Part shown: positions 2,678-34,627 of the stretch, in pieces
Position numbering within the stretch: position 1 is the stretch's first letter
How the letters are laid out: every line of letters begins with the position of its first letter
Assembly (NCBI GenBank): GCA_027064715.1
Contig: JAMOPG010000137.1
Location: 1 to 41,663 of the forward strand
DNA length: 41,663 bases
Reading direction: 5' to 3'
Source: Desulfobacterales bacterium
Lineage (GTDB): Bacteria > Desulfobacterota > Desulfovibrionia > Desulfovibrionales > Desulfothermaceae
The notes under the pieces: generated by a model
What the model was told of the DNA's origin: nothing
Database searches by the model: none
The model's input: the letters and a program-made list of their open reading frames with translations, nothing else
Position numbers and translations under genes: made by a program

Positions 2678-5293
2678 TTATCTCTTATCAATAAACTTTA
2701 AGATCTTATCAATGTCCATACTCCTTCTCATAACATCTGCCAGCATATTTAGACCATCTTCCACGTCATACCTTGCCTGGACATCTTTTAAGGCCTTAAG
2801 CCCCTTTTTTCTTCTAAGCTCATCAATAAAAAACCTTCTAAATCTATCATCGTCAAAGATTCCATGCAAATAACTTCCCCAGATCCTCAAATCTTTTGTA
2901 CCATACCCTATAATATCACCTCGCCTATTGGCAACCACAGAAATACAACCCTGATGATCCAACACATCAGTTTTACCATGATGGATTTCATATCCTCTTA
3001 TATTCATATTTGTGGGTAAAAATATGGCTTCAGTTTGAATTAAGGTCTTTTGTTTTTCTATTGTTGTAACTAGTGGCAAAAGAGCTAAACCTTCTATATT
3101 TGTTTCCTGGGATTCTATGTTATAGGGATCAGAAATTACTTTACCTAATATCTGAAAACCACCACAGATTCCTATTATATGAGTCTTTTTATTTAATGCT
3201 ATATTTTTAAGTAAACTTGCAATAGATGACTTTATTAAATATCTATTATCATTAATTACATTTTTGCTTCCAGGAATTATAATTGCATCAAATTGTTCTT
3301 TTAAAAGGTCTTCTTTGTTTTTTATAATCTTGACATATACATCTGGCTCTATTAAAAAAGGATCTATATCAGTAAAATTTGAAATATGGGGAAGATCAAT
3401 ACATGCAATTTTTACATCACAATTTGATCTATTTTTTAACTTATCCCATCCAAATTTAAAAGAAACAGAATCTTCTTCTGGTAGTCTTAAGTTCTTAATA
3501 TAAGGCACAATCCCTAATACAGGTCTGCCAGTGGATTTTTGTATAAATGAAATTGCAGAATCAAGGAGTGTTGCATTGCCTCTAAATTTGTTAATAACAA
3601 ACCCCTTTATTAACTCCTTTTCCCATTTATTAAGAAGATAGTATGTTCCAAAGAACGAAGCAAAAACACCTCCTCTATCAATATCTCCTACTAAAAGGGT
3701 AGCAGCATTGGCATAATAGGCCATTTCCATATTTGTTATATCAGATGATTTTAGATTTATCTCTGCAGGACTACCAGCACCTTCTAAGACTATTACATCA
3801 TATTCAGAGGCCAGTGCGTCATACGCCTCTCTAACAGTGGTAATTAGCTCTTTTTTAAACTCATAGTATGATAACACATCCATATTTCCCACAGGCTTTC
3901 CAAGAACTATGACTTGTGATCCAGTGTCTGAAGATGGCTTTAATAACACTGGATTCATCCTCACATCTGGCTCTAACCTGCATGCCTGGGCTTGAAGCAC
4001 CTGCGCCCTTCCCATCTCTCCTCCATCCCTTGTAACAAAGGAATTAAGGGACATGTTCTGGGCCTTAAATGGTGCAACCCTGTAACCCTGTTCAAGAAGT
4101 ATTCTACAAAGTCCAGCAGCCAAAATACTTTTCCCTGCATTGGAACTTGTCCCCACAAACATGATTGCAGGGGTATTTAATTTACTTCTGATCCTTGCTC
4201 TAGGTTTTACCTGTTTTACTCTCTTTCCCTTTATAATTTCCTGTAAGCACTCTACAAGATAATTATTTTCTTCTTCTTTTTTTATTGCCAATCTAAAAAA
4301 TTTCTTATCTAGCCCTCTATAATTTGAACAATCTCTAATTAAGATCTTTTTTTTCAAAAGTTCATTTTTTATATAATCTACATCCCATTTATCTGTTAAA
4401 ATCTTTACTAATAAAAAATTTGCACATGAATCATATACCTTTATCTCATCAATTTCTTTCAATTTTTTAACAAAATTATTTCGTTGCTTTTTTATAAATT
4501 CAACAGTTCTAAACTTATAGTCATTATCTTCAAATATCTTTGGTCCAATATTTTGAGCTATTATATTAACTGACCATGGACACATTACCTCTTTAAATCT
4601 CTTAATGATTTCCTTATTTGCAATTCCTAATCCTAGACGCAATCCAGGTACTGCATAAAATTTAGTCAAAGATAAAAGCACTATAACATTTTTAGGCCTG
4701 TTTAAATAAAGATGATCCAAATCTTCTACAAAGTCAGCAAATGCCTCATCAATTATAAAAAAGCAATCAGGGTACCTTGTTGCAAGCTCTCTAATCAAAT
4801 CTGGATCTGTTATTTTGCCTGTGGGATTGTTTGGCTGTCCTAAAAATACAGTGGAAGGTGTTTTAAGATAATTCTTTAATTGTTCTATTGATTTGATTAA
4901 AAAGTCATCTTCTTCTTTTAGATAAAAAAATTCTGTATATATGTTATTAATTTTACATACTTTCTCATAATCCACATAAGAAGGCACAAAGATGAGTGCC
5001 CTTTTAAGACCTAATATTTTTGGAATATGATATAATATTTCTGTTGAGCCATTGCCAAATACTATTTCATCTTCTGAGACTTTATAATGGAGCGATGCAG
5101 TCTTTGTTAATATTTCCATACCAGTGTCTGGATAATTTACTATATCATCAATGGATTCATAAAATGCATGTATTATACAATCTGGGGGTCCCAGGGGATT
5201 TATATTTGCTGAAAAATCTATTAATTCATAGACTGGAATATTTAGCCTTCTTGCAATAGAGTAAACATTTCCACCATGCACAAATTGTTTCAC
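2678..5293 (-). CDS. Bifunctional threonine-phosphate decarboxylase (CobD-like) / cobyric acid synthase (CobQ)
   Basis: N-terminal HGGNVYSIARRL...DFSANINPLGPP and PLP site SLTKFYAVPGLRLG (CobD-like). C-terminal IMFVGTSSNAGKS...FKAQNMSLNSFVTRDGGEMGRAQVLQAQA and amidotransferase IIGICGGFQILG (CobQ). A GTG start at 5293 with an upstream AGGAGA is more plausible than the tracked TTG at 5308. Confidence 0.92.
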   Translation of the reverse strand: MKQFVHGGNVYSIARRLNIPVYELIDFSANINPLGPPDCIIHAFYESIDDIVNYPDTGMEILTKTASLHYKVSEDEIVFGNGSTEILYHIPKILGLKRALIFVPSYVDYEKVCKINNIYTEFFYLKEEDDFLIKSIEQLKNYLKTPSTVFLGQPNNPTGKITDPDLIRELATRYPDCFFIIDEAFADFVEDLDHLYLNRPKNVIVLLSLTKFYAVPGLRLGLGIANKEIIKRFKEVMCPWSVNIIAQNIGPKIFEDNDYKFRTVEFIKKQRNNFVKKLKEIDEIKVYDSCANFLLVKILTDKWDVDYIKNELLKKKILIRDCSNYRGLDKKFFRLAIKKEEENNYLVECLQEIIKGKRVKQVKPRARIRSKLNTPAIMFVGTSSNAGKSILAAGLCRILLEQGYRVAPFKAQNMSLNSFVTRDGGEMGRAQVLQAQACRLEPDVRMNPVLLKPSSDTGSQVIVLGKPVGNMDVLSYYEFKKELITTVREAYDALASEYDVIVLEGAGSPAEINLKSSDITNMEMAYYANAATLLVGDIDRGGVFASFFGTYYLLNKWEKELIKGFVINKFRGNATLLDSAISFIQKSTGRPVLGIVPYIKNLRLPEEDSVSFKFGWDKLKNRSNCDVKIACIDLPHISNFTDIDPFLIEPDVYVKIIKNKEDLLKEQFDAIIIPGSKNVINDNRYLIKSSIASLLKNIALNKKTHIIGICGGFQILGKVISDPYNIESQETNIEGLALLPLVTTIEKQKTLIQTEAIFLPTNMNIRGYEIHHGKTDVLDHQGCISVVANRRGDIIGYGTKDLRIWGSYLHGIFDDDRFRRFFIDELRRKKGLKALKDVQARYDVEDGLNMLADVMRRSMDIDKILKFIDKR

Positions 5294-5316
5294 ACAACAT
5301 CTCCTCAATTTTATAT

Positions 5317-7639: not shown

Positions 7640-8359
7640 ATGATAATATATGCACTGCCTAAAGAACCAATATTCCCAGATCCTGCTATAGATGATGTTG
7701 GGGATATAGTTGCAATTGGTGGAGATTTGAGTGTTGATAGACTTATTGTGGCATATAAAAATGGTATATTTCCATGGTATGATGAACATTCTCCTATTTT
7801 GTGGTGGTCCCCAGATCCACGCCTTACCTTGTTTCCAGATAAACTCCATGTCTCAAGGAGATTAAAAAGGACCCTAAAACAGCAAAAATTTAAAGTAACT
7901 GTGAATTTCTGTTTTGAAAAGGTAATAAATCTATGTAGTTGTGTAACAAGACCTAACAGTGAAGGTACATGGCTACTACCTGAAATGATAGAGGCATATA
8001 CAAATCTCCACAAAATTGGTTATGCACATTCTATTGAGACGTGGTTTAATGGAGAGCTTGCTGGTGGTTTATATGGCGTGTCTATTGGAAAGGTCTTTTT
8101 TGGAGAATCCATGTTCCACCTTGTGTCAGATGCTTCTAAGGTTGCCCTTGTGTGGCTTGTTTTATTGCTAAAAAGGGCAGGATTCCATATGATAGATTGT
8201 CAGCAAGTAACAAATCACTTACTGAGATTTGGTGCCCAAATTATACCTAGAAAAGAATTTCTAAAAAGATTAAAAACAGCAATCTGGGAAATACCTCCAG
8301 ATGATCTATGGATACCAAGGGAGTTGTCAAGTAAGTCAACTTGGCTTAAGGAGCTCTAA
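7640..8359 (+). CDS. aat: Leucyl/phenylalanyl-tRNA--protein transferase
   Basis: 239 aa; FPDPAIDDVGDIVAIGGDLSVDRLIVAYKNGIFPWYDEHSPILWWSPDPR, TWLLPEMIEAY, ELAGGLYGVSIGKVFFGESMF. Confidence 0.95.
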   Translation: MIIYALPKEPIFPDPAIDDVGDIVAIGGDLSVDRLIVAYKNGIFPWYDEHSPILWWSPDPRLTLFPDKLHVSRRLKRTLKQQKFKVTVNFCFEKVINLCSCVTRPNSEGTWLLPEMIEAYTNLHKIGYAHSIETWFNGELAGGLYGVSIGKVFFGESMFHLVSDASKVALVWLVLLLKRAGFHMIDCQQVTNHLLRFGAQIIPRKEFLKRLKTAIWEIPPDDLWIPRELSSKSTWLKEL

Positions 8360-12890: not shown

Positions 12891-13286
12891 ATGTTAGCTC
12901 AAACTATACAAACAAATGAACTCCTTATTGAAAAGATAGAGACAATTGCAAAATGGTTAGCAGAGAAAAAGGCAAAACACATAGTGGCCTTAGATATTAG
13001 AGAATTTGGATCTATCACAGATGTGTTAATGATAGCATCAGGTGTTAACATTAGACACAATCAAGCACTTGCTGACTGGATTTTAGAAAAGATTTCAGAG
13101 AAAAGATGGGAATATTTAGGCATGGAAGGGTACAAGGTGGGAAATTGGATTTTAATTGATTTAAACGAGATAATTGTGCACATCTTTTTAGAAGAAACCA
13201 GGGAATTTTATAATATTGAAGGCCTTTGGAGAAAGGCAAAAGAGATAGACCTTAACTTAGGAGATATAAATAATGACAATGGTTAA
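12891..13286 (+). CDS. rsfS: Ribosomal silencing factor RsfS (Iojap family)
   Basis: 131 aa; HIVALDIREFGSITDVLMIASGVNIRHNQALADWI ... YKVGNWILIDLNEIIVHIFLEETREFYNIEGLW. Confidence 0.93.
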   Translation: MLAQTIQTNELLIEKIETIAKWLAEKKAKHIVALDIREFGSITDVLMIASGVNIRHNQALADWILEKISEKRWEYLGMEGYKVGNWILIDLNEIIVHIFLEETREFYNIEGLWRKAKEIDLNLGDINNDNG

Positions 13287-14820
13287 GCCTACTATTTTAC
13301 TAATTTTAGATGGATGGGGACTGGGAGAAAAAGATCCTAAAAAAAATGCTGTTTACAAAGCCAACACACCACACTTAGATTATCTTCTTGATAATTTTCC
13401 ATGGAGCAAATTGATTTGTTGTGGTGAAGAGGTTGGGCTACCTAAAGGCCAGATGGGAAACTCAGAAGTGGGACATTTAAATATTGGAGCAGGTAGGATT
13501 GTATATCAAGACATTGTTCGGATTGATAAATCTATTGAAGATGGTTCTTTTTTTGAAAATAAGACATTAAATAAGCTTATATCAAAGGTAAAAGAAAATA
13601 ACTCAACACTTCATCTTATGGGGCTTTTATCTGACGGAGGGGTTCATAGTCATGAAAATCATGTCTATGCCCTGTTAGAGCTAGCAAAAAGATCTGGTTT
13701 AAAAGAGGTGGTTATACACTGTTTTTTAGATGGAAGGGATACACCTCCAACATCTGGAGCTGGTTATTTAGAAAAACTTCAAAATAAAACGAAAGAGATT
13801 GGGGTAGGAAGGATAGGTTCAGTTGTAGGAAGATATTATGCAATGGACAGGGACAAAAGGTGGGATAGGACAAAGATCGCCTATGATATGTTCACAAAAG
13901 GTGAGGGAGAAAAGATAAAAGACCCAGTGGAAGCAGTAAGTTTAGCATACAAACAAGGAGAAACAGATGAATTTATAAAGCCTAGAGTTGTGGTTGATTC
14001 AAAGGGTGAGCCTGTTGGGCTTATCAAAGATAAAGATGGGATATTTTTCTTTAATTTTAGGGCTGATAGGGCAAGACAGTTAGTTTTAAGTTTATTTAAA
14101 GAAGATTTTAAAGAATTTAAAAGAGATATATGGCCAGATCTATGTATGATTGCCACAATGACACAATATGAAAAGGATTTTCCCATAGAGGTTGCCTTTC
14201 CACCTGTATCTCTAAAAAATATCTTTGGAGAAGTATGTTCAAAGATGGGACTAAAACAATTAAGGATTGCAGAAACAGAAAAATATGCCCATGTGACATA
14301 TTTTTTTAATGGTGGAAAAGAGGAGCCCTTTGAGGGAGAAGACAGGGTATTGATTCCTTCTCCAAAAGATGTTGCAACCTATGATCAAAAGCCTGAAATG
14401 AGCGTGTTTGAGATTACTGGGGAGTTAAAAAAGAGGTGGTTATCCAATCAATATGATATTGTCATCTGTAATTTTGCCAATCTTGACATGGTTGGTCATA
14501 CAGGCAATTTTGAGGCAGCAGTGAAGGCGTGTGAAGCTGTGGATAGATGTGTTGGACAAGTCATAAAGATGGTGGATCTTAGAGGTGGAAGACTCTTTGT
14601 TACAGCAGATCATGGAAATGCTGATGAAATGATTGATGAAAATGGAAATGTCCACACTGCTCATAGCAAAAACCCTGTTGCTTTTGTATGGTATGAAGAA
14701 AATGGCAAAATACCTTCTTTGAAAAAAATGGGCAAATTAGGAGACATAGCTCCAACAATCTTGTCTTCATGGGGTGTTGAAATCCCAAAAGAAATGACAG
14801 GTGATGTGTTAATAAAATAG
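13273..14820 (+). CDS. gpmI: 2,3-bisphosphoglycerate-independent phosphoglycerate mutase
   Basis: 515 aa; ILLILDGWGLGE, QMGNSEVGHLNIGAGRIVYQDIVRID, HCFLDGRDTPP, VVGRYYAMDRDKRWDRT, VTADHGNADEM. Overlaps the end of rsfS. Confidence 0.97.
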   Translation: MTMVKPTILLILDGWGLGEKDPKKNAVYKANTPHLDYLLDNFPWSKLICCGEEVGLPKGQMGNSEVGHLNIGAGRIVYQDIVRIDKSIEDGSFFENKTLNKLISKVKENNSTLHLMGLLSDGGVHSHENHVYALLELAKRSGLKEVVIHCFLDGRDTPPTSGAGYLEKLQNKTKEIGVGRIGSVVGRYYAMDRDKRWDRTKIAYDMFTKGEGEKIKDPVEAVSLAYKQGETDEFIKPRVVVDSKGEPVGLIKDKDGIFFFNFRADRARQLVLSLFKEDFKEFKRDIWPDLCMIATMTQYEKDFPIEVAFPPVSLKNIFGEVCSKMGLKQLRIAETEKYAHVTYFFNGGKEEPFEGEDRVLIPSPKDVATYDQKPEMSVFEITGELKKRWLSNQYDIVICNFANLDMVGHTGNFEAAVKACEAVDRCVGQVIKMVDLRGGRLFVTADHGNADEMIDENGNVHTAHSKNPVAFVWYEENGKIPSLKKMGKLGDIAPTILSSWGVEIPKEMTGDVLIK

Positions 14821-15100: not shown

Positions 15101-17434
15101 ATGTTAGGTAAAAGTGTCTTGGACTTAATTGGGAACACCCCTTTAGTTGAAATAAATAGACTAAATCCAAATCCAAAAGTAAAAATTTATGCAAAATTGG
15201 AATATTTTAACCCTGGAGGTTCAATAAAAGACAGGGTGGCCTTGGCAATGATTGAGAGGGCAGAAAGGCTTGGAGAAATCACTGAAGACAAAATAATTAT
15301 AGAGGCCACTTCTGGAAATACAGGGATCGGCCTTGCCATGGTGTGTGCTGTTAAAGGCTATAAACTCATGTTACTTATGCCTGAATCAGCATCAGAAGAA
15401 AGAAAAAGGATTTTGAGGGCATATGGTGCAGAGCTATATTTGACCCCTGGGCATCTTGCCACTGACGGTGCAATAGAAGAGGCATATAGACTAGCAAGGG
15501 AAGAGCCCCATAAATATGTGTTAATGGATCAATTCAATAATCCAGCGTCTATTGATGCCCATTATCATGGGACAGGAGTTGAGATATGGGAACAAACACA
15601 AGGCAAGGTAACCCATGTTGTAGCAGCCCTGGGTACATCTGGCACTGCAATGGGCATCTCTAAAAGATTAAAGGAATTAAATCCTGAGATACAGGTGATT
15701 GGAGTAGAGCCTTATGTTGGCCATTCAATTCAGGGCTTAAAAAATATGCAGGCCTCATACCCACCAGGTATCTTTGAAAGACACAGGCTGGATAAGATAA
15801 TAAATGTAGATGATGACACGGCCTTTGAACTTGCCAGAGAACTTGCCAAAAAAGAAGGCATATTTGTGGGGATGAGCTCAGGTGCAGCATTTGCAGGGGC
15901 CTTAAATGTGGCTAAAGAAATAGAAGAAGGTGTTATAGTTGTTATTTTTCCTGATGGTGGAGATAGATATCTATCTACTTCCCTTTTTGTGCCACCTAAA
16001 AAGCAAGGCATAAAGCTATATAATTTGATAAACAAAAAAAAAGAATTACTCACCTTTGAAGATGAGATGAACCTTTTTACCTTTGGACCATCTGCTGATT
16101 CTCCATTAGATATTGAATCTTTTAGAAGGATTTTGATTCTGGACTTTATTGCAAACTACTTAAAGACAAAAGAAATAGATGTAAAATCTCTTGTTGGAGT
16201 TGCAGATCTTGATGATCAGGCGGTATGCAAAGCAGATCAACTGGAAATGACGCTTGAGCAATTTTCAGATCATTTTATTGAGTTCTTAAATAACTATGGT
16301 AGGAAATTGTTGCTGAATGATGTTGAATTTAAACCTGCTTCCAAGCAACAATCTCTGATGCTCAAGATTACGCAAAATATATTAGACAAAGGGCGGGGTT
16401 ATGAAAAATTGAGGTCAGTTTATTTTGATGTCACCAAAGATAAAGATTATGGGACCATGACAGGAACTGATTTTGATAAATTGATAGTGGGCAAAACCGT
16501 GGAACTAGATACTTATGCCAAAGACAATCCAAGAGATTTTACTCTTCTCAAAAGGGCTACTTTAAAGGATTTAAAAAAAGGGGATTTTATTAAGACCAGA
16601 TGGGGAAATGTGAGGCCAAGCTGGTATCTGCAAATGGGGGCATCAATTGGCACTGATTTAAAAAAAATAGATCTTGTTTTAGGAGGGATGAATCACTTTT
16701 TTCCACATTTAGAAAACCTAAAGGCAATATGGAAGTATGGTCTAAATATTACTCCCAAAAGATGGGCAGTAGTAGGGGCTCCCCATGCAGATGAGCCTGA
16801 ACTCTTAAAAATAGATGAACTGGTAAAATTAGTTACGCCTCAAGCACTGAGGATGTTTCTTTTGTCTCAATCATATCATAAACCCCTTAATATCACTAAA
16901 CAAAATTTGCTTATGTGGCAAAAAAACCAAGATAGAGTTCAGCAGTGTGCAATAAATGTGAAATCTATAAAGGATGAAGTGGGCAGTGTGAGACCTGAGT
17001 TGAATCAGATATTGTATGATCTAAAAAGGAGATTTTATCAGGCTATAGAAGATGATCTAAAGATATATAAGTTCTGGCCATCTCTATTTGATTTTTGCAA
17101 AAAGATAAACCTTTGGTTTTTCAAAAAAGAGTTGACACCAAAAGAGGCAAAACTAATCTGGGATAAACTAAAAGATGTGGAAGGTATTTTAAAGATTATT
17201 GATCATGAAAAACTCCCAGTGTCAACAAAAGGGCTGGATCCACATATCAAAGATTTGCTTGACAAAAGGATGCAAGCAAAGAACAAAAGAGATTTTAAAC
17301 AGGCTGATGAACTGAGGTCCAGGATTAGAGAATCAGGTTATATTGTTGAAGATACACCTTATGGTCAAAGGGTATTTAAAATAAAAAATTTAGATCTTGA
17401 TCCTGGGATCAACTATCATATAAAGAAGATCTGA
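15101..17434 (+). CDS. Cysteine synthase (O-acetylserine sulfhydrylase-like) fused to a degenerate cysteinyl-tRNA synthetase-like domain
   Basis: 777 aa. Residues ~1-305: GNTPLVEINRL, FNPGGSIKDR (PLP Lys43), ATSGNTG, GTSGTAMG, GMSSGAAFAG, PDGGDRYLST. Residues ~312-760 are collinear with CysRS (VADLDDQAV, YFDVTKDKDYG, DNPRDFTLLKRA, RPSWYLQMGASIG, GGMNHFFPHLENL, LRMFLLSQSYHKPLNIT, KRDFKQADELRSRIRESGYIVEDTPYGQRV), but signature motifs are replaced. Confidence 0.9.
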   Translation: MLGKSVLDLIGNTPLVEINRLNPNPKVKIYAKLEYFNPGGSIKDRVALAMIERAERLGEITEDKIIIEATSGNTGIGLAMVCAVKGYKLMLLMPESASEERKRILRAYGAELYLTPGHLATDGAIEEAYRLAREEPHKYVLMDQFNNPASIDAHYHGTGVEIWEQTQGKVTHVVAALGTSGTAMGISKRLKELNPEIQVIGVEPYVGHSIQGLKNMQASYPPGIFERHRLDKIINVDDDTAFELARELAKKEGIFVGMSSGAAFAGALNVAKEIEEGVIVVIFPDGGDRYLSTSLFVPPKKQGIKLYNLINKKKELLTFEDEMNLFTFGPSADSPLDIESFRRILILDFIANYLKTKEIDVKSLVGVADLDDQAVCKADQLEMTLEQFSDHFIEFLNNYGRKLLLNDVEFKPASKQQSLMLKITQNILDKGRGYEKLRSVYFDVTKDKDYGTMTGTDFDKLIVGKTVELDTYAKDNPRDFTLLKRATLKDLKKGDFIKTRWGNVRPSWYLQMGASIGTDLKKIDLVLGGMNHFFPHLENLKAIWKYGLNITPKRWAVVGAPHADEPELLKIDELVKLVTPQALRMFLLSQSYHKPLNITKQNLLMWQKNQDRVQQCAINVKSIKDEVGSVRPELNQILYDLKRRFYQAIEDDLKIYKFWPSLFDFCKKINLWFFKKELTPKEAKLIWDKLKDVEGILKIIDHEKLPVSTKGLDPHIKDLLDKRMQAKNKRDFKQADELRSRIRESGYIVEDTPYGQRVFKIKNLDLDPGINYHIKKI

Positions 17435-32536: not shown

Positions 32537-34627
32537 ATGGCCAATTTTTTGCTTGAAATAGGTACTGAAGAGATGCCAGCAAGGTTTTTGCCAGGACTCA
32601 TTGCAGGGATAAAAGAACTCTTTGAAAATCAACTTAAGGAAATGGACATAAACTTTGGATCAGTTGAATCTTTTGCAACACCTAGAAGAATTGTGGCCTA
32701 TATTAAAGATCTGGCTTCTGAGCAAAATAAAAGCGTAAAAAAGATAATTGGCCCACCAATTAGTGTGGCAAAGGATCAAGATGGAAATTATACAAAAGCA
32801 GGTTTAGGTTTTGCAAAATCTCAAGGTGTGGATTTAAGTGAGCTGTTTGAAGAACAGACTCCTCGGGGGAAATATCTGGCTGTAAAAAAGGAATTTGGAG
32901 GGGAGAAGACAAAGGATTTACTACCAAAGATTTGCTTGGATACAATACATAATCTCCATTTTCCCAAAAGGATGAAATGGGAAAAATCCAAGTTTTTGTT
33001 TGGTAGACCAATAAGATGGATAGTTGCTTTGCTTGAGAATGAAGTTATAGAATTTGAAATTGCCTCTATAAAATCATCCAACAAGACCTATGGTCACAGG
33101 GTAATGGGCCCTGGTCCTTTTGAAGTGAGTTCCTGTGATACATATTTTGAAGTGTTAGAGCAAAAGGGTAAGGTGATATTAGATCCTAAAAAAAGGCTTT
33201 CTATTATCAAATCCTCAGGGGAAAAAGAGGCTAAAAAACTAGGTGGCAGGGTAATTTGGGATGAAGAACTCTTAGAAGAGGTAATTGGACTTGTGGAATA
33301 TCCTTTTCCCATTATTGGAGAATTTGATGCAAAATTTTTAGAATTACCTAAAGAGGTACTTTTGACCAGTATAAAAACCCACCAAAAGTCCTTTGGGATT
33401 GAAGGCAGTGATGGAAGGCTTCTTCCTTATTTTTTGTGCACTGTTAATATTGAACCAAAGGACATCTCATTGGTTAAAAAAGGTTGGGAAAGGGTCTTAC
33501 GTGCAAGATTGGAAGATGCTGCCTTTTTCTGGAAAGTAGACAGTAGCGCTTCTTTAGATAAATGGAGAGAGGAGCTAAATAGGGTCGTATTTCTAGGTCC
33601 ATTGGGTACAATGGGAGATAAGGCCAACAGGCTGGAGAAGATTTGTGAATATCTCTCAGATATAATTGATCCTTCCCTAAAAGGGCCTTTAAAAAGGGCA
33701 GGACAGCTCGCGAAGGTAGACCTTGTGTCTGAAATGGTGGGAGAGTTTGACGACTTACAGGGGATTATGGGGGGAATATATGCAAGAAAAAAGGGGGAAG
33801 ATCCAGTTGTGGCAGATGCAATCTATGAACATTATCTCCCCACTGGAGTGGATAGCCCACTACCAAAGACATTAGGTGGAGCGATTTTGTCCATTGCTGA
33901 TAAAATGGATAACATTATTGGTTGTTTTGGGTTAGATATGATACCTACTGGTGCACAAGATCCACACGGCATGAGGAGACAGGTGCTTGGTATTATAAGG
34001 ATAATCTTGGATAAAAATCTTGATTTTTCTCTTTTTGATGCATTTTCAAAGGTATTTGATATTTATGGTGAGATTCCGTGGAAAAACACCAAAGAAAAGA
34101 CCATGGAGCTCTTAAAGGACTTTGTTGCTGGGAGATTAAAGGGCTATTTCCAATCCCTAGACTATCCAACAAAGATAGTGGATGCAATAGTATGTGCAGA
34201 TATTGATAATATATATCTTACAAAAAAGAGACTTGATGGTCTTTTTGAATTCAGCAAAGATCCTGATTTTGAAAAGGCAGTACTGACCTTTAAAAGGGTT
34301 GATAATATAATAAAAAAGCAGGGACTGCAAACAGAAACAACCCTTACAGGAGAGTTTGATCCAAAGATGTTTGTGGAACAAGAGGAGAAGGCGCTGGCAA
34401 AGGCCATCTCTAATATGGAACAGAGGTGGGATGAACTTTATAATAAAGAGGACTTTAAAGGGCTTTTTATGTTACTAAATGAGATTAGACCTGTTGTAGA
34501 TGATTTTTTTGACAAAGTAATGGTGATGTGTGAAGATGTTGATCTTAGAAGGAATAGATTAAATCTCCTTTTTGCGATTGTAAAAAGGCTTTCTCAACTT
34601 GCAGATTTTAGTGCACTTCAGATTTAA
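32537..34627 (+). CDS. glyS: Glycyl-tRNA synthetase beta subunit
   Basis: 696 aa; NFLLEIGTEEMPARFLPG, FATPRRIVAYIKDLA, GPPISVAKDQDGNYTKAGLGFAKSQG, PKRMKWEKSKFLFGRPIRWIVALL, C-terminal FFDKVMVMCEDVDLRRNRLNLL. Confidence 0.98.
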   Translation: MANFLLEIGTEEMPARFLPGLIAGIKELFENQLKEMDINFGSVESFATPRRIVAYIKDLASEQNKSVKKIIGPPISVAKDQDGNYTKAGLGFAKSQGVDLSELFEEQTPRGKYLAVKKEFGGEKTKDLLPKICLDTIHNLHFPKRMKWEKSKFLFGRPIRWIVALLENEVIEFEIASIKSSNKTYGHRVMGPGPFEVSSCDTYFEVLEQKGKVILDPKKRLSIIKSSGEKEAKKLGGRVIWDEELLEEVIGLVEYPFPIIGEFDAKFLELPKEVLLTSIKTHQKSFGIEGSDGRLLPYFLCTVNIEPKDISLVKKGWERVLRARLEDAAFFWKVDSSASLDKWREELNRVVFLGPLGTMGDKANRLEKICEYLSDIIDPSLKGPLKRAGQLAKVDLVSEMVGEFDDLQGIMGGIYARKKGEDPVVADAIYEHYLPTGVDSPLPKTLGGAILSIADKMDNIIGCFGLDMIPTGAQDPHGMRRQVLGIIRIILDKNLDFSLFDAFSKVFDIYGEIPWKNTKEKTMELLKDFVAGRLKGYFQSLDYPTKIVDAIVCADIDNIYLTKKRLDGLFEFSKDPDFEKAVLTFKRVDNIIKKQGLQTETTLTGEFDPKMFVEQEEKALAKAISNMEQRWDELYNKEDFKGLFMLLNEIRPVVDDFFDKVMVMCEDVDLRRNRLNLLFAIVKRLSQLADFSALQI

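Follow-up and report, generated by a model that had tools for sequence, protein, structure and literature searches.

Why would a bacterium join a cysteine synthase to a copy of cysteinyl-tRNA synthetase (CysRS) that has lost its catalytic signatures, and what could such a copy still contribute to the enzyme in front of it? The question is raised by one gene in a window of 41,663 nucleotides (the whole stretch of DNA analyzed here), contig JAMOPG010000137.1 of a Desulfobacterales bacterium (GCA_027064715.1, genome G000). Synthetase paralogues employed in metabolism usually lose tRNA reading but still have a site for the ligand or for catalysis; in the fusion family described here, this pattern is reversed. 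The reading that we favor, with a probability of about 0.5, is that the gene would encode a tRNA-Cys-binding pseudo-CysRS, regulatory or scaffolding, fused to a cysteine synthase that is independent of serine acetyltransferase (CysE). No published description of a cysteine synthase/pseudo-CysRS fusion was found in the open-access literature, and the accessible part of a 2010 survey of class-I synthetase-like proteins does not mention one; domain databases may well list the architecture.

Architecture and distribution of the fusion

The gene and its parts, with the evidence for each in brackets, are as follows.

15101..17434, + strand: fusion gene, 777 aa, cysteine synthase plus pseudo-CysRS (ORF reading, Pfam, NCBIfam, full-length homologues)
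15119..15955, + strand: PLP cysteine synthase (PALP) domain, CysM-like, aa 7-285 (Pfam, NCBIfam, alignment)
15728..15748, + strand: acceptor-substrate loop IQGLKNM, aa 210-216 (alignment)
16010..17380, + strand: CysRS-like region, aa 304-760, cysS profile positions 1-465 (NCBIfam, AF2 model, PDB match 1u0b_B)
16082..16084, + strand: F328, replacing zinc ligand C28 (alignment)
16109..16120, + strand: DIES at the HIGH position, aa 337-340, then the family signature R342-R343 (alignment)
16391..16636, + strand: CP1-type insert, aa 431-512, with M512 replacing zinc ligand C209 (alignment)
16706..16720, + strand: H536, the kept zinc ligand H234, and L540, replacing E238 (alignment)
16772..16810, + strand: site of the deleted KMSKS loop, aa ~558-570 (alignment)
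17237..17371, + strand: anticodon-binding domain, aa 713-757 (Pfam, alignment, E. coli contacts from PMC12684709)

The frame runs for 777 codons from ATG to stop, with no internal stops. In Pfam, it matches PALP (aa 7-285, E 7e-80), tRNA-synt_1e (aa 321-604, 3e-29), and CysS_C, the C-terminal anticodon domain of CysRS (aa 710-757, 1e-7). In NCBIfam, the front half narrowly exceeds the cysM cut-off (396 bits vs 394) and the back half lies far below that of cysS (TIGR00435, 170 bits vs 340); mshC was absent among the best 25 matches of the window ORF. These matches bear out the first-pass annotation of the gene, which had joined an apparently intact cysteine synthase to a complete CysRS-collinear region; the PLP cysteine synthase spans aa 7-296 and is intact, and a class-I CysRS fold of full length comes after it. 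The AF2 model of the C-terminal half (mean pLDDT 91.4, pTM 0.89) has as its top PDB match E. coli CysRS in complex with tRNA-Cys (1u0b, chain B; E 1.8e-26, TM 0.73/0.76), with a lower structural score for the tRNA-independent paralogue MshC (E 8e-20); the full-length model is good within domains (pLDDT 89, pTM 0.78).

Full-length homologues, at 47-70% identity, were identified in most of 60 relatives; the named carriers are Desulfohalobiaceae, Desulfovibrionaceae, Desulfomicrobium, Desulfonatronum and relatives, along with Syntrophaceae MAGs. A profile search with the C-terminal half, with a cut-off near 325 bits, well clear of the canonical CysRS scores, detected the fusion in 152 of the 395 genomes sampled from the phylum, nearly always as one frame of 740-890 aa. 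At the same cut-off, the fusion was found in none of 46 genomes from the phylum of a Nitrospira MAG (L092), and three of 96 genomes from the phylum of a Myxococcales MAG (L095) were positive, one with the fusion and two with the halves as adjacent genes. Given the homologues in most genomes of the window's order and across the phylum, an isolated assembly artefact was rejected. A decaying pseudogene was rejected as well, in agreement with the initial view of the gene, because about 150 homologues retain an uninterrupted frame; dN/dS against the nearest relative is 0.036 in the synthase half and 0.106 in the helical bundle, dS being saturated over the rest. A 1403-aa frame around one fusion (L213:1737-5945) that might have carried a third domain was discarded as an over-long high-GC reading frame.

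Loss of the catalytic site

An alignment combined 66 fusion rows of the window's order and 89 drawn phylum-wide with 25 canonical CysRS from the order; a few of the 155 fusion rows overlap, and about 150 are distinct. Comparison with 25-26 canonical CysRS confirmed to the residue the by-eye placement of DIES (aa 337-340) at HIGH and of F328, M512, H536 and L540 at the zinc positions, only H536 being kept. KMSKS had been read as replaced by APHAD (aa 560-564); the loss of the motif stands, but the flanks align while KMSKS itself falls in a gap, so that the loop is deleted in the window protein and APHAD is merely neighboring text. Catalytic motifs at shifted positions were rejected by the profile, multiple and structural alignments alike.

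The further claim that all signatures are replaced holds for the window's order, whose rows lack HIGH, KMSKS and three zinc ligands, bar a few that keep single letters, and where HxGH occurs in 0/66 rows. It does not extend to the wider family, where the zinc site and a KMSRS-like loop persist. There, HIGH is altered in 87 of 89 rows, most often to HLGL or a close variant with an invariant RR after it (HLGL..RR), and HxGH is found in two; the complete zinc quartet (CCHE) is present in 40/89 rows, compared with 0/66 in the window's order, three of the ligands (CCH) in 65/89, and the KMSRS-like loop in many members. About three changes on the tree suffice to account for the loss of the zinc site.

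Of CysRS, the window protein retains the class-I catalytic fold and a CysS_C domain whose residues align to the G34 contacts described below. An assignment to MshC, with its active HIGH/KMSKS/zinc site and mycothiol pathway, does not hold, the motifs being lost and the structural match weaker. In the favored reading, the pseudo-synthetase of the window can no longer make cysteinyl-adenylate or hold cysteine via zinc. The fusions also possess invariant residues of their own that differ from canonical CysRS, namely Y472 and R485 in the CP1-type insert (T481, L488 and K492 are nearly so), and another fusion-specific invariant, R343, follows the former HIGH; furthermore, the mean net charge of the pseudo-catalytic region is +2 to +3, vs -8 in CysRS.

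Retention of the anticodon-binding domain

Retention was measured over the 177 columns that are invariant in canonical CysRS. The anticodon domain keeps 81% of its columns in the window's order and 85% in the wider family, whereas the corresponding values are 30-31% and 49-51% for the two Rossmann parts, and 34% and 40% for the helical bundle. By alignment, R723, K727, F732, D736, R739 and D751 correspond to R423, R427, W432, D436, R439 and D451 of E. coli CysRS; R723, D736 and R739 are present in 155/155 fusion rows and D751 in 154/155, position 727 is R or K in 152/155, and position 732 is aromatic in 155/155. In the E. coli enzyme, R423, R427, W432 and D436 contact G34, with R427, D436 and W432 given as contacts by Hauenstein et al. 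2004, as reported in PMC12684709, and R423 added through a water network (PMC12684709). Because these columns were kept and the catalytic ones lost, selection has maintained anticodon reading, or at least that surface, and has allowed amino-acid activation to lapse. The earlier suggestion of a pseudo-synthetase coupled to the enzyme that makes its cognate amino acid fits this pattern, with tRNA-Cys as the probable ligand, and is strengthened by the invariant patch; tRNA binding and control of the synthase are predicted.

Some observations count against tRNA reading. R439 and D451 of E. coli CysRS are not known to be direct tRNA contacts, and the R/D constellation of the fusion may be partly structural. 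The helical bundle of CysRS also touches tRNA; that of the fusion is slightly acidic and keeps few canonical residues, which counts against docking. The CP1 invariants Y472, T481, R485 and K492 could mark another ligand, and no tRNA-Cys gene was found near the fusion in the window or the scanned loci.

Cysteine synthesis without serine acetyltransferase

The front half has the PALP fold with the catalytic PLP lysine K43 (in GGSIKDR) and the phosphate loops S71-G72-N73-T74 (in TSGNTG, 70-75) and G178-T179-x-G181-T182 (GTSGT, 178-182), as well as MSSG at 258-261; across the 155 fusion rows, these PLP-site motifs are invariant or nearly so. The acceptor loop reads IQGLKN(M/L) in the fusions, with K214 invariant in 155/155 rows, whereas the separate CysK proteins of the same order have IQGIGA(G/N)F in 15/15. 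Because the loop of the window protein is IQGLKNM and not the IQGIGAGF of the CysE-linked CysK, O-phosphoserine is the likely acceptor substrate. The basic residue in GLKNM may be equivalent to that of LRNM in M. tuberculosis CysM, Arg220 (R220), and bind the phosphate.

A point missed by the first-pass annotation is that the fused synthase works without CysE and is often the only one in the cell. CysE was not detected in 76 of the 152 fusion genomes, a count that rests on a profile cut-off, includes drafts and, as an association between fusion and CysE, is not phylogeny-corrected. Among the CysE-less fusion genomes with a completeness of 97% or more, 32 of 34 have no cysteine synthase besides the fusion, which supports the prediction that the front half forms L-cysteine from an activated serine and sulfide. 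Each of four CysE-positive control genomes has a separate CysK, and in the window's order CysE often adjoins it. In G000, neither CysE (best match 29.5 bits, inside a 473-aa frame) nor a second cysteine synthase-like match to the fusion query (E 0.001) was found; three other PALP proteins are encoded, none of which matched the query at this threshold. The fusion would explain how cysteine could be made without serine acetyltransferase in many genomes of the phylum. It is also the principal enzyme of cysteine formation in many sulfate reducers and related bacteria, high-sulfide cells that need to limit free cysteine. Separately, in three drafts of the same order (G003, G009 and G056), one of them 95% complete, no fusion and no separate cysteine synthase were detected; either the sequence is missing or these are cysteine auxotrophs.

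Canonical CysRS is encoded elsewhere in G000 (C53:11181-12629, 590 bits, with HIGH and KMSKS), so that the fusion was rejected as the only CysRS of this cell. A canonical copy coexists with the fusion in all finished or near-complete fusion genomes checked, except G401.

Genomic neighborhood

The other annotated features of the window are as follows.

8-83 and 2543-2616, - strand: tRNA-Pro genes, GGG and CGG, about 2.5 kb apart (Rfam)
2678-5308, - strand: class I/II aminotransferase, CobB/CobQ-type nucleotide-binding and glutamine amidotransferase domains in one frame
7640-8359, + strand: leucyl/phenylalanyl-tRNA-protein transferase (aat), ordinary, about 7 kb upstream of the fusion
12891-13286, + strand: RsfS-like ORF (putative name), 131 aa, conserved upstream neighbor in the window's family
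13273-14820, + strand: gpmI, conserved upstream neighbor in the window's family
32537-34627: glycyl-tRNA synthetase beta, ordinary, about 15 kb downstream of the fusion

The context of the fusion is conserved only locally, as the 131-aa ORF and gpmI in the window's family; elsewhere, candidate acetolactate synthase/ilvC-like neighbors occur, named by reading only. Neither cysE nor tRNA-Cys was seen beside the fusion in the loci scanned for operon clues, and no Rfam family other than the tRNA-Pro genes exceeded the threshold in the window. The frame at 2678-5308 appears to be a CobD-like/cobyrinate amidotransferase fusion. Two Syntrophaceae loci (L076 and L078) also have a tRNA-Pro(CGG) gene near the fusion, <1 kb upstream, probably by coincidence. 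In Solidesulfovibrio alcoholivorans, a tRNA-Sec gene (L067:9083-9159, + strand) lies <1 kb downstream; it was absent in the other loci scanned.

Proposed mechanism and alternative explanations

Under the favored reading, the front half would make cysteine, probably from O-phospho-L-serine and sulfide, and the C-terminal half would dock tRNA-Cys because the CysRS fold and the GCA-reading residues are kept. Docking would govern how active the fused synthase is or where it is placed, perhaps through a preference for the uncharged form or else by bringing cysteine synthesis beside charging, and cysteine output would follow the state of the tRNA-Cys pool. The zinc pocket seen in many other lineages suggests that cysteine, too, was a possible ligand of the domain in its ancestral state, so that members in those lineages may sense cysteine together with tRNA; the tRNA part alone would remain in the window's order. 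If true, this would be direct feedback from tRNA to metabolism without transcription, a post-translational control of amino acid synthesis by its own tRNA. A tentative extension, to which we give rather less than an even chance, is that a counterpart of GCN2 logic operates phylum-wide, with the main, CysE-independent and phosphoserine-using synthase gated by tRNA-Cys through a pseudo-synthetase that keeps only anticodon reading.

Of the alternatives, the one that survives best, although unlikely, is an amino-acid sensor, in which the pseudo-CysRS would bind cysteine or a nucleotide and exert HisZ-like feedback on the synthase, tRNA being irrelevant. The zinc site and KMSRS-like loop that accompany an altered HIGH in the wider family are in its favor, as such members may hold cysteine yet activate it poorly, and a precedent exists in the histidine inhibition of HisG mediated by HisZ (PMC9734150). 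A pure amino-acid sensor, however, would have no need of the anticodon patch, and both the domain and the patch are still kept where the zinc site has gone, in the window, its order, and further blocks of the tree.

Quite unlikely is a scaffold or channel without allostery, in which the C-terminal half would hold tRNA-Cys or the real CysRS in a "transamidosome-like" particle for cysteine. It draws on the precedent of SepRS-SepCysS-SepCysE-tRNA complexes (PMC5424206) and, like the favored reading, on the anticodon surface and on the two Myxococcota-side genomes with separate halves. In these, genes of 305 aa and 468 or 471 aa lie 4 bp apart (L274:579-2907 and L275:576-2913) and encode a cysteine synthase and an HVGL..RR pseudo-CysRS with the zinc site and KMSRS kept; canonical CysRS is found elsewhere in both genomes. 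In the tree, canonical CysRS stands apart from all fusions (100% SH-aLRT) and the split pair groups with the fusion of the same phylum (97%). Fission is therefore the simplest account of the split, and the link survives it, the halves still being adjacent. These pairs are handy natural material on the two halves. A pseudo-synthetase seated on the anticodon would nevertheless compete with CysRS for the same tRNA face.

Very unlikely is a bifunctional enzyme whose C-terminal half would still be a cysteinyl-tRNA synthetase or cysteine ligase in the HLGL/zinc/KMSRS members and degenerate only in some lineages. Several members exceed the cysS equivalog cut-off (G098 with 444 bits and G320 with 432) and would be annotated as CysRS, and G401, at 94% completeness, showed the fusion only, with no canonical CysRS found; yet the full HxGH is missing in 87/89 rows, canonical CysRS coexists in finished genomes, and the active site is gone in the window protein. 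Annotation calls for caution here, as NCBI-type models can label some fusions "cysteine--tRNA ligase". Finally, CysRS-like persulfide synthase (CPERS) activity would suit sulfide-rich cells, and CysRS reportedly makes cysteine persulfide, but this activity needs the lysine motifs KIIK and KMSKS, which in the window's order read R/Q-T/A-L-x and are deleted, respectively, making it hardly credible.

Comparison with known systems

The fusion shares with CysRS its fold, collinear over 450+ residues, and the same anticodon residues; it differs in lacking HIGH and KMSKS, in keeping one of four zinc ligands, and in forming a separate clade. From CysM and the O-phosphoserine sulfhydrylases, which its front half resembles in the cysM score and the basic acceptor-loop residue, it is set apart by 460 extra residues. 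MshC and CysRS* are other CysRS paralogues with non-standard roles, but MshC is catalytic and tRNA-independent, and CysRS* is reported to lack the anticodon-binding domain and to charge SelC* (PMC9437257), whereas the fusion has kept that domain and lost catalysis. The analogy to HisZ and EpmA drawn in the first-pass annotation is loose, as these proteins are without the anticodon-binding part that the fusion has kept. HisZ is likewise a synthetase paralogue associated with an enzyme that makes its cognate amino acid, and it passes histidine inhibition to HisG, the ATP phosphoribosyltransferase (PMC9734150); it is, however, a separate subunit, whereas the pseudo-CysRS is covalently joined and, in the window's order, has lost the amino-acid site. 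By analogy, the fusion would work most like the HisRS-like domain of GCN2, with a logic related to that of HisZ. In GCN2, a catalytically dead synthetase-like domain is fused to an enzyme, and uncharged tRNA binds the HisRS-like and C-terminal domains (PMC4052509), the same kind of sensing that we propose here. GCN2 is eukaryotic, its domain is of class II, it controls translation, and its tRNA binding is demonstrated; the CysRS fusion is of class I, would bind tRNA as judged from sequence, and sits on the biosynthetic enzyme itself.
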